This document shows, piece by piece, positions 13,278-63,023 of a DNA stretch of 64,000 nucleotides (the stretch's first letter is position 1; each line of letters begins with the position of its first letter). The DNA comes from Alistipes sp. Lineage in GTDB: Bacteria > Bacillota > Clostridia > Oscillospirales > Ruminococcaceae. The notes beneath the pieces are model-generated. The model was not told the DNA's origin. It ran no database searches and saw only the letters and a program-made list of their open reading frames with translations. The DNA is taken from NCBI GenBank assembly GCA_023667265.1, contig JAMPAJ010000001.1, positions 21,714-85,713 of the forward strand, in the 5' to 3' direction. The translations under genes and the position numbers were made by a program.

Positions 13278-13281
13278 TAAC

Positions 13282-13316
13282 AAAAGCTGGTGCATTTTGA
13301 GGTTGCATCAGCTTTT
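13282..13316 (+). terminator. Terminator after the epimerase gene
   Basis: A 13-bp stem (AAAAGCTGGTGCA with TGCATCAGCTTTT, one wobble) with a 9-base loop ends in TTTTATTATTT. Confidence 0.85.
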
Positions 13317-13332
13317 ATTATTTCTATAAAAA

Positions 13333-13532
13333 GGGGACGCTCTCTCTTGCAGAGCGTCCCCTCTTTCAAAACAGTCCACCGGACTGTTTTGAAATTCACC
13401 CCTTGCAGAGCGCCTAAAGGCATCATCGACCTGCGGTCGATATGGGACTCTGTCCCATGCCCTGCCAGAGGCGCCGCCTCTGGACTCTGCAAAAGGGACA
13501 ACCGTCCCTTTTGAAACCCGGTGTCGCGCATA
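13333..13532 (+). repeat. Multi-hairpin dispersed element, copy 1 (complete reference)
   Basis: The unit is a row of hairpins with little sequence between them: H1 GGGGACGCTCT/AGAGCGTCCCC (13333-13361), H2 TCAAAACAGTCC/GGACTGTTTTGA (13366-13392), H3 GCCTAAAGGC, H4 ATCGACC/GGTCGAT, H5 ATGGGAC/GTCCCAT, H6 CCAGAGGC/GCCTCTGG, and H7 AAAAGGGAC/GTCCCTTTT. It ends GAAACCCGGTGTCGCGC. Other copies lie at 39340-39386, 39540-39832 and 62778-62973. There is no coding capacity that looks real. It fills the 295-bp gap between convergent genes. Confidence 0.85.
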
Positions 13533-13572
13533 GATTATCATTGATTAGAATTTTTCCCCGCGGGCTTCACTG

Positions 13573-13815
13573 TTATTCTATAACAATATAGTTATCCGCC
13601 GCATTTTCCTTAGTGGCATATTCCGTCACGTTCAGAACCTTGACTTTAAGCGGATGTGCTCCCATATTTATCTCGATAACGTCGCCTACCTTTACATCAT
13701 AAGAAGCACGGGCGATTTTTCCGTTTACCACGATCTTCTCCGCGTCGCAGGCGTCATTGGCGACTGTTCTGCGCTTGATAAGCCTTGTTACTTTCAGGTA
13801 TTTGTCCAGTCTCAT
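13573..13815 (-). CDS. rqcP: S4-domain RNA-binding protein RqcP (YabO family)
   Basis: An 80-residue S4 protein (MRLDKYLKVTRLIKRRTVAN..., VVNGKIARASYDVKVGDVIEI). RqcP works with RqcH in ribosome-associated quality control, binding stalled 50S-peptidyl-tRNA complexes during Ala tailing. Its gene is usually beside mazG and an HU gene, as here. A terminator separates it from hup, so partial readthrough or its own promoter is needed. The ribosome-binding site is AAAAGGAG. Confidence 0.88.
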   Translation of the reverse strand: MRLDKYLKVTRLIKRRTVANDACDAEKIVVNGKIARASYDVKVGDVIEINMGAHPLKVKVLNVTEYATKENAADNYIVIE

Positions 13816-16179: not shown

Positions 16180-16695
16180 TCAGGAATTTGCCTTGCGTCT
16201 GTCGGCTTCGTCCTTGAGCTGGCAGCTTCTCAGCTCTGCCATGACCTTCTGGTAGAGCACATAGATCGTCCGCTTTTCGATTTCTGTTTCGGGTATCATT
16301 CCGGGAGCGAACTCTGTTCTGTAAATTCCGCCCTTTGTCAGCAGGAAAACATTCTGAGTTCTTCCCGTGGGCAGGTCGAACTTTGTGGTCTTTTCGCACT
16401 TAGGCAGCAGATGATTGCAGCCTGCAACAAGGTTGTGGGATGCCTGGACGAGGTTTCTGTACTTCTGAGCTGCGCCTGTATACTCGCCGCCGTGGTTGAA
16501 GTAGAGGTTAGCAGCTCCGTTGATGAAGCAAACCATAGTTGTAAGCACATTGTTGGGCATCGGGATGTCGATAACAACGCCGAAAACGTCATTCTTTTTA
16601 AGATTGCCCTGGAAAAAGCCTGCCGGGAAGTTGATCGCCTGACTTCTTGTCATCAGGTACTTCTGAGTAACCGGGTATCTGTTTGTTCTTGCCAT
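16180..16695 (-). CDS. Conserved-looking hypothetical protein in the trpS transcript
   Basis: A 171-residue soluble protein, not recognised. It starts MARTNRYPVTQKYLMTRSQA, contains a hydrophobic middle (VLTTMVCFINGAANLYF) and ends with a charged helix. There is no signal peptide or clear membrane segment. The ribosome-binding site GAGAGGAA and gaps of 14-21 bp to trpS and the aminotransferase indicate an operon gene that is genuinely translated. No function is proposed. Confidence 0.75.
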   Translation of the reverse strand: MARTNRYPVTQKYLMTRSQAINFPAGFFQGNLKKNDVFGVVIDIPMPNNVLTTMVCFINGAANLYFNHGGEYTGAAQKYRNLVQASHNLVAGCNHLLPKCEKTTKFDLPTGRTQNVFLLTKGGIYRTEFAPGMIPETEIEKRTIYVLYQKVMAELRSCQLKDEADRRKANS

Positions 16696-17970: not shown

Positions 17971-17999
17971 ATTATATCATATATTCTGAAAAATTGCAA
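17971..17999 (-). promoter_or_regulatory. Promoter of the aminotransferase-trpS group
   Basis: On the minus strand, TTGCAA and TATAAT are exactly 17 bases apart, preceded by CGCGTGGG. The same CGCGTGGG-TTGCA arrangement precedes miaB. Confidence 0.75.
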
Positions 18000-18077
18000 C
18001 CCACGCGGAAATAAATTTTAAACTGAAGTATGTTTAACGCGAAATCGCCGGCGGAGGCTCTCCGCCGCAACATAATT
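17994..18077 (-). repeat. Promoter-attached repeat, copy A
   Basis: Read on the minus strand: a hairpin GCGGAGAGCCTCCGC, then CGGCGATTTCGCG, an AT-rich stretch, then TTTCCGCGTGGGTTGCA. The hairpin-to-CCGCGTGGG distance is 57 bases, against 56 in copy B at 42241-42318. The block lies immediately upstream of the aminotransferase promoter and also precedes the divergent flippase gene. Confidence 0.75.
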
Positions 18078-22350: not shown

Positions 22351-22386
22351 AAGAGGGGACGCTCTGCAAGAGAGAGCGTCCCCTAA
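22351..22386 (+). repeat. Single H1 hairpin of the multi-hairpin element
   Basis: AGGGGACGCTCT and AGAGCGTCCCCT flank GCAAGAG, the complement of the H1 loop in copy 1. Only H1 is present. It is followed by AAAATTTT and may serve as a weak terminator for the upstream gene. Confidence 0.8.
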
Positions 22387-39298: not shown

Positions 39299-39339
39299 TC
39301 ATCGCATATTAGATAAAATACATCTGCAAGCGTAGATAC

Positions 39340-39386
39340 TGGGTTTCAAAAGGGACGGTTGTCCCTTTTGCGAAGTCCAGAGGCAG
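39340..39386 (-). repeat. Multi-hairpin element, fragment 2a (inverted)
   Basis: Holds GGGTTTCAAAAGGGAC, the H7 hairpin and the start of H6 in reverse orientation to copy 1. The rest is replaced by a different sequence containing GTGGGG/CCCCAC and GCGAG/CTCGC hairpins (39387-39480). Confidence 0.75.
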
Positions 39387-39480
39387 AGGTGGGGCAGCCC
39401 CCACGGGCAGTTTCACGTAGTCGCGAGTACCTCGCTGCTTTATTTGGCAGACGTAGGTGTTCCGCGAACGATATAATTTT

Positions 39481-39509
39481 CCTCCCCGAATAAAAGGGGA
39501 GGATTTTTA
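39481..39509 (+). terminator. Terminator inside the composite repeat region
   Basis: CCTCCCC and GGGGAGG close an 8-base loop followed by ATTTTTAT. It probably ends transcription of the 34-39.3-kb operon. Confidence 0.8.
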
Positions 39510-39539
39510 TATCTTTTGGAATTTGCAGTGGAAATATCA

Positions 39540-39832
39540 GTGGACGCTCTCTCTTGCAGAGCGTCCACTCTCCGAAAACAGTCCACCGGACTGTTACAAA
39601 ATTCACCCTTTGCAGAGCGCCTAAAGGCATAATCGACCTGTGGTCGATATGGGACGCTGTCTCATACCCTGCCAGAGGCACTACACATATATAAATTAAA
39701 ATATCTTGATACGCGGAATAATTTTAAGCAAAATTATATTAGCGAGTTTTCGAGCGGTCACGTGAATCGGCTCGGCGACTCGCCGTGGACTCTGCCAAAG
39801 GAGCATTGCCCCTTTGGAATCCCGGTGTTTAC
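39540..39832 (+). repeat. Multi-hairpin element, copy 2b (interrupted)
   Basis: H1 to H5 match copy 1 (GTGGACGCTCT/AGAGCGTCCAC; AACAGTCC/GGACTGTT; ATCGACC/GGTCGAT). H6 is broken after CCAGAGGC by about 104 foreign bases (about 39681-39784), which include the perfect hairpin ATAATTTT-AAGC-AAAATTAT. The element resumes at TGGACTCTGCC and ends with an H7 variant CCAAAGG/CCTTTGG and CCCGGTGT. The rest of the 779-bp gap to 40077 (39833-39980) shows no further structure before the mannanase promoter. Confidence 0.8.
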
Positions 39833-42186: not shown

Positions 42187-42204
42187 TTCGGATAAATAGT
42201 TTTA

Positions 42205-42318
42205 TGCGTGGGTTGCAATTTTGCTGTAAATATGATATAAGCGGAGAGCCTCCGCCGGCAAGTTCGCGCTATAAATATTGGCGATCAATATTTTTTCCGC
42301 GTGGGTTGCATTTTCGCG
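42205..42318 (+). repeat. Promoter-attached repeat, copy B
   Basis: GCGTGGGTTGCAA with TATAAG 17 bases later (42213-42241), then hairpin GCGGAGAGCCTCCGC, CGGCAAGTTCGCG, an AT-rich stretch and TTTTCCGCGTGGGTTGCA. It is a partial tandem: the GCGTGGGTTGCA motif is present at both ends. The second end is the miaB promoter. Confidence 0.75.
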
Positions 42319-42334
42319 GATTTTATGCTATAAT
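42306..42334 (+). promoter_or_regulatory. Promoter of miaB-ylbF-mutS group
   Basis: TTGCAT and TATAAT are 17 bases apart, preceded by CGCGTGGG. The spacer begins TTTCGCGGATTTT, almost identical to the mazG promoter spacer. Confidence 0.75.
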
Positions 42335-58965: not shown

Positions 58966-59811
58966 ATGGATATAGAAAAAATCATTCTTTTAAGTGACAT
59001 GGACGGAACTCTTCTCACTTCTAAGAAAACAATAAGCGGCGAGGACATGGCTGCCATTGAAAAATTTATCGATATGGGCGGAAAATTCACAGTGGCGACA
59101 GGCAGGACGATACAGTCCTTCCGTCAGTACCGCAGTATTCTGCCTCTTCATATGCCTGTTATAATGTACAACGGCGGAGGTATATACGACTACAGTCAGG
59201 AAAAGCTGCTCTGCAGCAGTCCGCTGCCTGCGGCAAGCCGGGAAATGAGCATGGAGCTTCTGCGGCTTATGCCGGAAACCGGCGGCGAAGTGCTGACGGA
59301 TAAGGGTACATACGTGTTCAGCAACACGGAATATCAGCAGCTCCACACACGGCTCTGCGGCATTACGCCGGAGTACATGAGCCTGCCGGAAATTCCGGAG
59401 GGCGGCTGGCTTAAAGTCCTTTTCGCCCTTGCCCCGGAGGATATACCACATTTGCAGCTTCTCACGGAGCAGCTCGGCTATACCGGAGAGGCAGATTTTG
59501 TCCGCTCCTCGGATATATTTCTGGAGATGCTGCCAAAGGGCGTAAGCAAAGGCTCGGCTCTTGCGGAATACCGGAAATTGGAGGGCATGGAGGACTTCAC
59601 CTTTATCGCTGTCGGCGATTTCGACAACGATCTTGAAATGATACAGGCGGCTGACATAGGCGTGTGTCCTGCAAATGCCGAGGAATCGGTGAAAAACGCT
59701 GCGGATATTGTCCTGACACGCACCAACGACGAGGGTGCGCTGGCAGAGCTTATACAACGTATAACAGACAATTCATTGTCTTATACTAATAACCAATTAA
59801 CCTACGGATAA
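58966..59811 (+). CDS. Cof-type HAD hydrolase
   Basis: A 281-residue sugar-phosphate-type phosphatase: DMDGTLLTSKKTIS (nucleophile), NGGGIYDYS, SKGSALAEYRK (Lys), and GDFDNDLEMIQAADIGVCPANAEESVKNAADIV (acidic motif). The last ten residues (SYTNNQLTYG) and the stop are encoded within the inverted repeat starting at 59783, so the natural C-terminus was probably changed by insertion of that element. Confidence 0.9.
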   Translation: MDIEKIILLSDMDGTLLTSKKTISGEDMAAIEKFIDMGGKFTVATGRTIQSFRQYRSILPLHMPVIMYNGGGIYDYSQEKLLCSSPLPAASREMSMELLRLMPETGGEVLTDKGTYVFSNTEYQQLHTRLCGITPEYMSLPEIPEGGWLKVLFALAPEDIPHLQLLTEQLGYTGEADFVRSSDIFLEMLPKGVSKGSALAEYRKLEGMEDFTFIAVGDFDNDLEMIQAADIGVCPANAEESVKNAADIVLTRTNDEGALAELIQRITDNSLSYTNNQLTYG

Positions 59812-59942
59812 ATCCGCCGTATATACTGCGCCTGCTCTGCGTCAAACGCCCTTGACAGGCGACAGCCTGCCTGCGGTCGTTTTCCTTGATCAGTCACAGT
59901 CTATCCAACGGCTTTATCCATAGAACAATTGGTTATTAGTAT
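59783..59942. repeat. 160-bp element with long imperfect terminal inverted repeats
   Basis: Arms ATACTAATAACCAATT (59783-59798) and the exact complement (59927-59942). Pairing extends inward with mismatches through CTA-GGATAAA-CCG to about 34 bp. The interior shows no gene. It ends the HAD gene and lies 22 bp before transketolase. The structure is that of a MITE-like or long-hairpin element. Confidence 0.8.
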
Positions 59943-61803: not shown

Positions 61804-61958
61804 AGACCTCCTCGGAAACTAAGGTGCGTCATATGGCTGAAGATTTTGTCGTATGGCAAGGCGGACGACGAAAGCGGACTGTCGTCCTCTGAGGAGGACA
61901 ACGCAGCCATATGAAAAAATATTTGACATACGGTGTGCATTAGTTTCCGAGGAGGTCT
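61804..61958. repeat. 155-bp nested inverted repeat carrying the araC ribosome-binding site
   Basis: Perfect 19-bp outer arms (AGACCTCCTCGGAAACTAA at 61804-61822 and its complement at 61940-61958), a perfect 10-bp inner pair (CATATGGCTG at 61830; CAGCCATATG at 61904) and a central GGACGAC/GTCGTCC hairpin. The right arm includes GAGGAGG, 9 bases before the ATG of the AraC gene; the left arm is its exact complement. Confidence 0.85.
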
Positions 61959-62777: not shown

Positions 62778-62973
62778 AGCGCGACATTGGGTTTCAAAAG
62801 GGACTGGTCCCTTTTGCAGAGTCCAGAGGCAGCGCCTCTGGCAGGGTGTGGGACAGAGTCCCACATCGACGGAACGTCGATAATGCCTTCAGGCGCTCCG
62901 CAAAGGGTTAATTTTGTAACAGTCCGGAGGACTGTTACAAAAGAGTGAACGCCCTCTCTTGCAGGGCGTTCTC
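62778..62973 (-). repeat. Multi-hairpin element, copy 3
   Basis: In reverse to copy 1: CGCGACATTGGGTTTC, H7 (AAAAGGGAC/GTCCCTTTT), H6 (CCAGAGGC/GCCTCTGG), H5 (GTGGGAC/GTCCCAC), H4 (ATCGACG/CGTCGAT), H3, H2 (TTTTGTAACAGTCC/GGACTGTTACAAAA) and H1 (GAACGCCCT/AGGGCGTTC). The H1 loop reads CTCTTGC on the plus strand, so H1 is inverted relative to the rest. It fills most of the 282-bp gap. Confidence 0.85.
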
Positions 62974-63023
62974 TTAAAAATATTAAAAAGAAAAGAGAAA
63001 AAAGAACAGAAACGGAGATAAAA

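Follow-up and report, generated by a model that had tools for sequence, protein, structure and literature searches.

Does the hairpin-rich sequence that recurs between genes in this DNA specify a structured RNA of use to its host, or is it an interspersed repeat that spreads among intergenic places? The window (the whole stretch of 64,000 nucleotides analysed here) contains hairpin-rich copies at the three places where they had been predicted, found here at 13332-13525, 39539-39832 and 62787-62974, and the stem alleles quoted for H1, H4 (ATCGACC/GGTCGAT and ATCGACG/CGTCGAT), H5 and H7 are present. The first copy is a full unit (13332..13525) and matches covariance model R1, built from 30 copies (alignment A2), with an E-value of 4.1e-60. 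Its hairpins had been read as H1 to H7 on the plus strand; the strand that probably folds is the minus strand. H1 (13333..13361) carries the loop CTCTTGC on the plus strand, which is GCAAGAG on the folding strand, and H2 (13364..13394) has an almost invariant core, ACAGTCC/GGACTGT, and a stem base that covaries. A conserved linker follows (13395..13414, minus strand), reading GCAAGGGGTGAA on the folding strand, and then H4 (13425..13441), H5 (13442..13458), H6 (13465..13483) and H7 (13490..13513). Six of the seven consecutive hairpins originally described are clear; the other, H3, is GCC/GGC and has only 3 bp. H4 and H3 are absent from the copies in Ruminococcus flavefaciens.

The third copy (62787..62974, E 3.7e-51) is likewise a full unit, and unit size in the window is ~190 bp. 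It has the plus strand as its inferred folding strand, with the hairpins ordered H7 to H1, so the hairpin order said to be shared by the three copies holds only between opposite strands and not along one strand. Its H1 loop (62947-62971) is inverted. Folded in the orientation originally proposed, copy 1 and copy 3 lie 9.6 and 8.1 standard deviations below dinucleotide shuffles, and for each of them 0 of 200 shuffles folded as well. The second copy (39539..39832, minus strand) is degenerate, the model matching part of it with E 8.2e-33. Its H2 is made of two different stem alleles joined, its H5 is mismatched (ATGGGAC/GTCTCAT), and ~100 bp stand in place of H6. Tail to tail with it is a partial unit on the plus strand (39335..39384), consisting of H7 and half of H6, and the ~150 bp between the two (39385..39538) is a spacer of the type seen between tail-to-tail pairs, which the sequence in place of H6 resembles by eye. 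A terminator-like GC hairpin with a T run lies inside this spacer at 39480-39508. A stand-alone H1 hairpin is found at 22354..22384 (plus strand, E 1.9e-5, model positions 157-188). The original prediction had overlooked that copy 3 is reversed and copy 2 decayed, that the modularity extends beyond seven hairpins and that, as described below, fillings differ at fixed sites.

The repeat is real, with dozens of copies in gut and rumen Ruminococcus. With 150 of 907 candidates scored, the genome that holds the window (G000) has 78 R1 matches at E<=0.01, of which 44 reach E<=2.2e-41; blastn with copy 1 gave 83 matching pieces there (40 of 77 candidates scored), several of which are small secondary pieces of one copy. 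At E<=1e-5 a match is present in 42 of 60 genomes of the same genus, this one included, and in 26 of 34 good-quality genomes; copy number within the genus runs from 0 to at least 43, some genomes being incomplete. Further copies in the genome and its relatives, set beforehand as a test of the element, are thus plentiful. A survey of the family at E<=1e-8 found matches in 21 of 157 genomes and 17 of 123 genera (the present genome and two other members of its genus included). A pattern scan of named genomes matched at least 115 stretches, and the 80 matches listed come from Ruminococcus, R. flavefaciens, Oscillospiraceae, Clostridiales, Clostridia, Bacillota and unnamed 'bacterium' assemblies, several of the listed titles naming a gut or rumen source. 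Phage and plasmid records gave no match to the element. The viral contig IMGVR_UViG_3300010262_000163 has one unit at its edge (L124:30-61), which may be host sequence. In G018 and G046 some contigs end at copies of the element, which therefore probably breaks assemblies.

Compensatory changes in the stems, the other prediction, are borne out by alignment A3, which consists of 121 model matches (116 distinct) from 100 loci, with L197-L239 and others left out. In this model-fitted alignment, where related rows inflate the double-change counts, standard pairs fill 97.1% of cells, 55 of 69 pairs show a double change, and 957 cells have both partners changed, where shuffles give 250 (sd 14.6). When the pairing partner is slid along, pairing falls to 33.6-55.7%. 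MAFFT alignment A1 has double changes but no one-sided standard changes in its hairpin stems; in the closing helix one-sided standard changes are present.

The same alignments bear on which strand folds. The consensus fold reaches -100.6 kcal/mol in the orientation opposite to the one originally proposed, against -82.9 kcal/mol in the latter, the alignments differing slightly in extent. Distinct stems in which exactly one pair is not Watson-Crick were then counted, each once per alignment. Seen on the strand opposite to the original reading, they include 28 G.U and 8 A.C stems (6:0 in A2 and 22:8 in A3; two-sided binomial p = 0.0012), 30 of the 36 coming from model-fitted A3 and one H6 stem occurring in both alignments. 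The other stems show 28 further single mismatches of other types, and several mismatches in 19 cases. Unpaired columns in the same transition classes give 8:10 (A2) and 15:20 (A3), with no bias of the G.U type, and the excess in the stems is therefore not explained by mutation bias. Unpaired positions on this strand are 66-71% purine. Because of the G.U excess it is this strand, the minus strand of the original reading, that probably folds, as RNA or as single-stranded DNA, which does not prove transcription. A preference for G.U over A.C that is confined to the stems and missing from unpaired columns suggests that a single folded strand is under selection. Selection or templated copying of structure had been proposed as alternatives; the G.U excess speaks in part for the first, and the double changes and inverted loops in part for the second.

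The conserved core consists of the linker GCAAGGGGTGAAT, then H2, then H1 with the loop GCAAGAG. The inner part of H2 (ACAGTCC/GGACTGT) is nearly constant, and its outer pairs covary in several ways. The claim that loops vary freely fails for H1, since among 77 contexts of its two commonest stems GCAAGAG is the loop in 63 (contexts, among which some copies may count twice); other H1 stems have related loops such as GTAAGAG and GCAAGTG. In the other genera viewed (G134, G191 and G283) the 3' two-hairpin core is conserved and the 5' hairpins differ. Units in the genome of the window start on the folding strand with ACA(C/T)(C/T)GGG, and many copies in G018 have extra hairpins upstream of the unit.

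In the R. flavefaciens genome G048, the array lies inside elements with AAATCATAATTT ends. Of 17 copies fetched, 6 share one identical 171-nt core, 10 have cores 1-8 bases away from it, and one carries an extra hairpin; cores so nearly identical point to recent spread. A long left-end pattern is found within 3 mismatches in 15 of the 17, and end-to-end length, including the motifs AAATCA(T/A/G)AATTT and complement, is 296-360 bp (12 of 17 copies measured). Written as AAATYATRATTTA, the end motif gives 64+62 matches in G048 against 1+1 for a reversed control, a count that is high partly because shorter elements share the motif. These shorter elements enclose other palindromic fillings between the same ends: GGGACGCC hairpins, heptamer repeats such as GTTGAGAGTT, and TTAGCC repeats. 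TA adjoins the ends in most R. flavefaciens copies examined, and no empty sites were found. Among the genomes inspected, only those of R. flavefaciens showed terminal inverted repeats; 18 units from the genome of the window and 7 units from G134 showed none beyond swapped-flank controls, and an apparent terminal match in G134, noted by eye, was dropped as no better than swapped flanks. Palindromes built of the heptamer repeats GTTGAGAGTT, TTAGTGATTAG and GAGTAAGTAG (L241-L258) also have AAATCATAATTT ends in R. flavefaciens. Most G048 arrays (L067-L083) have, downstream of H1, TTGAGC, 16 nt and TATAAT, which by eye form a promoter-like sequence directed outward.

Close relatives carry different fillings in the same place. 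The sites compared comprise four from two 20-kb stretches of G048, together with 12 flank pairs queried in four genomes; 3 of these pairs were resolved with another filling, 1 (C10:26418) carries unrelated sequence in G074, and 8 were split between contigs or set aside. At 7 orthologous sites at least one close relative has another filling, and at two of the 7, S4 and S5, a relative has a filling in opposite orientation. At S1 (C8:66542) G048 and G046 both have the array, whose right module is not the same in G046, and G074 has the heptamer filling; G124 has ~160 bp there without a recognisable end, and G044, split over two contigs, was left out. S2 (C8:77492) holds a GGGACG filling in G048 and the heptamer in G046, with G074 and G044 not alignable. 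At S3 (C4:186089) the GGGACG filling of G048 corresponds to the heptamer in G046 and G074 and to a third filling in G044. S4 (C4:201985) has the array in G048 and G074, the heptamer in G046 and, in G044, the two-hairpin core in opposite orientation, on a contig that begins inside this core. At S5 (C4:302953) the array of G048 is matched by the heptamer in G046 and by the heptamer in opposite orientation in G074 and G044. S6 (C8:123571) and S7 (C2:480159) both have the array in G048 and the heptamer in G046, with the left junction deleted. The element at S5 (L073, which is G048:C4:302953; L331, L323 and L325) separates the TATAAT-like promoter of a gene from its ribosome site, and this placement in four genomes of the R. 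flavefaciens group, with the filling different or flipped, could possibly affect expression. Two insertion-like gaps (L260:6641-6920 and 16260-16536) showed no sign of the element on closer comparison.

No empty site was seen among the sites compared in genomes of the R. flavefaciens group, which makes exchange in place a simpler reading of the differing fillings than repeated insertion, and they would then have arisen by such exchange; repeated insertion at one hot spot could mimic it. We consider it probable that the element is a non-autonomous modular palindromic interspersed repeat, within the broad class of MITEs, BOX elements and BIMEs, whose fillings are exchanged in place. Palindromic modules arranged around the conserved two-hairpin core would spread among intergenic places, nearly all of them beside a gene 3' end in the genome of the window, by putative machinery acting in trans, and in the R. 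flavefaciens group fillings would be swapped and flipped between conserved ends. Pairing in the stems would be maintained by a need for one strand to fold, either as RNA or at a single-stranded DNA stage, as the G.U excess suggests, and whole-stem changes would be supplied by template switching and by conversion between copies. It is possible, if rather doubtful, that the strand-specific folded core is itself an exchangeable filling, which replaces or flips fillings at occupied, palindrome-ended sites in the manner of a homing cassette, by way of RNA or single-stranded DNA and without an IS-type transposase of its own.

A classical MITE would instead be moved in trans by a transposase of an IS630-like, IS200/IS605-like or other family, the fillings being independent insertions at preferred TA sites. 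The element is small, has no internal gene and reaches high copy number, and the AAATCATAATTT ends with adjoining TA in most R. flavefaciens copies examined also fit such an origin. However, terminal repeats were not found in the genome of the window, and S3, S4 and S5 are occupied in all four genomes compared. The Pfam families Y1_Tnp (PF01797) and DDE_3 (PF13358) were searched in 24 genomes, 12 of them element-bearing, and gave matches at E<=0.001 in 7 and 6 genomes, respectively. Y1 is above the cut-off in three of the 12 element-bearing genomes (G032, G035 and G046), as a MITE would lead one to expect, with a weaker match in G058; it is also present in the zero-copy genomes G045 and G054, and has 0 matches in G000, G018, G048, G015, G008, G004, G044 and G074. 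DDE_3 matches 0 of the 12 element-bearing genomes and is present only in genomes without the element at E<=1e-5 (G002, G003, G016, G025, G027 and G049). Neither family occurs in the high-copy genomes G000, G018, G048, G015 and G008, which speaks against a classical MITE and makes this origin unlikely. The Y1/RAYT and IS630 transposases, both absent from these five genomes, were accordingly rejected as movers. The search covered these two families only, so a mover of another kind may exist. An autonomous partner was sought in G048, genes being read in two stretches between end motifs, and none was found; no element seen there combines the long left end with a gene. Besides 15 of the 17 copies, the matches to this end were one at the end of a contig, one in a short element and one at the right end of a copy.

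The surroundings of the element bear on whether it serves the host, as a structured RNA or 3'-UTR element (a terminator cluster, mRNA stabiliser or processing site) that by chance was often copied. With flanking ORFs of at least 80 aa taken from our own ORF caller, among which small ORFs beside paired units may be spurious, 36 copies in the genome of the window lie between convergent (17), tandem (18) or divergent (1) genes, and 35 of the 36 are flanked, on one side or both, by the 3' end of a gene. This placement would suit a host RNA, as would the A-rich/T-rich bases of H2 and H7, which resemble two-way terminators in sequence, the conserved H1 loop and linker, the G.U excess on one strand and the purine content of 66-71% at unpaired positions of that strand. 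Against it, genes beside the element in G048 often keep a terminator-like hairpin of their own (by eye), relatives have unrelated fillings at a shared site, one copy has promoter-like sequence on one side and start-codon sequence on the other, and copy number ranges from 0 to at least 43 within a genus in which some genomes are incomplete. A host-beneficial RNA thus seems quite unlikely. About ten tail-to-tail pairs of units occur in the same genome (e.g. G000:C40:46045-46574), with a spacer of ~100-150 bp that is itself a repeat.

Template switching leaves whole-stem changes and loop inversion as its signatures, according to PMC8794818. The H1 loop is inverted in two copies, one being copy 3 of the window and the other lying elsewhere in the same genome. 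At one site common to G018 and G000, matched changes distinguish most stems of one copy from those of the other, and three orthologous places in these genomes, which are too distant for clean empty sites, show one unit in the same orientation with other stem alleles, one rearranged and one without a unit in the window. Both template switching and conversion are compatible with the inverted loops and with double changes of whole stems that leave few intermediates, conversion between copies being an equal alternative. A purely mutational product, in which template switching keeps the palindromes perfect and ectopic conversion spreads them with no selection on folding, would agree with the multi-base double changes of H2 with few intermediates, the two inverted H1 loops and the mechanism described in the same source, but is highly improbable in view of the one-strand G.U excess, the loop and linker conserved across genera, and a high copy number that the mechanism alone leaves unexplained.

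The modular palindromic interspersed repeat with its conserved folded core is apparently undescribed. No named family with this layout had been recognised, and Rfam likewise gave 0 matches at gathering score in the window; within 13280-13600 the lowest E-value was 0.0087, at 20.9 bits where the gathering score is 100. Word and sequence searches of open-licence PMC papers, judged by titles and abstract openings, found no prior description. Like BOX of Streptococcus pneumoniae (PMC3049150), the element is intergenic, high in copy number, modular, foldable and variable in size, and the modular units in variable number of BOX-type repeats are found here as optional and swapped hairpins. Unlike BOX, it has six covarying hairpins around a two-hairpin core and occurs in many genera of the family, a separation made by description and not by sequence, and it has different fillings at the same site. 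RUP is a MITE with terminal repeats like those of IS630-Spn1 (PMC3049150). The element resembles such MITEs in being small and without a gene and in its terminal inverted repeats and TA context in R. flavefaciens; it differs in that the genome of the window is without terminal repeats, 0 of 12 element-bearing genomes have an IS630-type match, and the interior differs at fixed sites. With REP and BIME sequences and their RAYT (PMC3733652, PMC2817692), for which the title of PMC3733652 names GTAG and CGTC tags, it shares extragenic palindromes, arrays and paired units, but its arrays have six hairpins and ~190 nt, and Y1 is absent in the genome of the window and four other high-copy genomes and present in three element-bearing ones. 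The hairpins maintained by template switching in PMC8794818 show the same whole-stem compensatory changes and loop inversion; those are in rRNA, whereas here they are in a dispersed repeat.

With dozens of copies in some genomes, the element offers a natural system in which selection acting on a folded strand can be distinguished from the repair of palindromes by template switching, and in which the movement of bacterial repeats that have no known transposase can be studied. There is a warning in it as well: strong covariation in dispersed repeats alone is no proof of a regulatory RNA.

Other repeats are present in the window. At 59783-59942, inverted arms of 55 nt (78% complementary) with ends ATACTAATAACCAATT and 50 nt between them have the appearance of another MITE-like repeat, and at 61804-61958, inverted arms of 32 nt (81%) with ends AGACCTCCTCGGAAACTAA are separated by 91 nt. 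A second dispersed repeat, with the motifs TTGCAACCCACGCGGA and TATATCATA, occurs in opposite orientations at 17971-18065 and 42194-42334, near the starts of ORFs 18030 and 42360.
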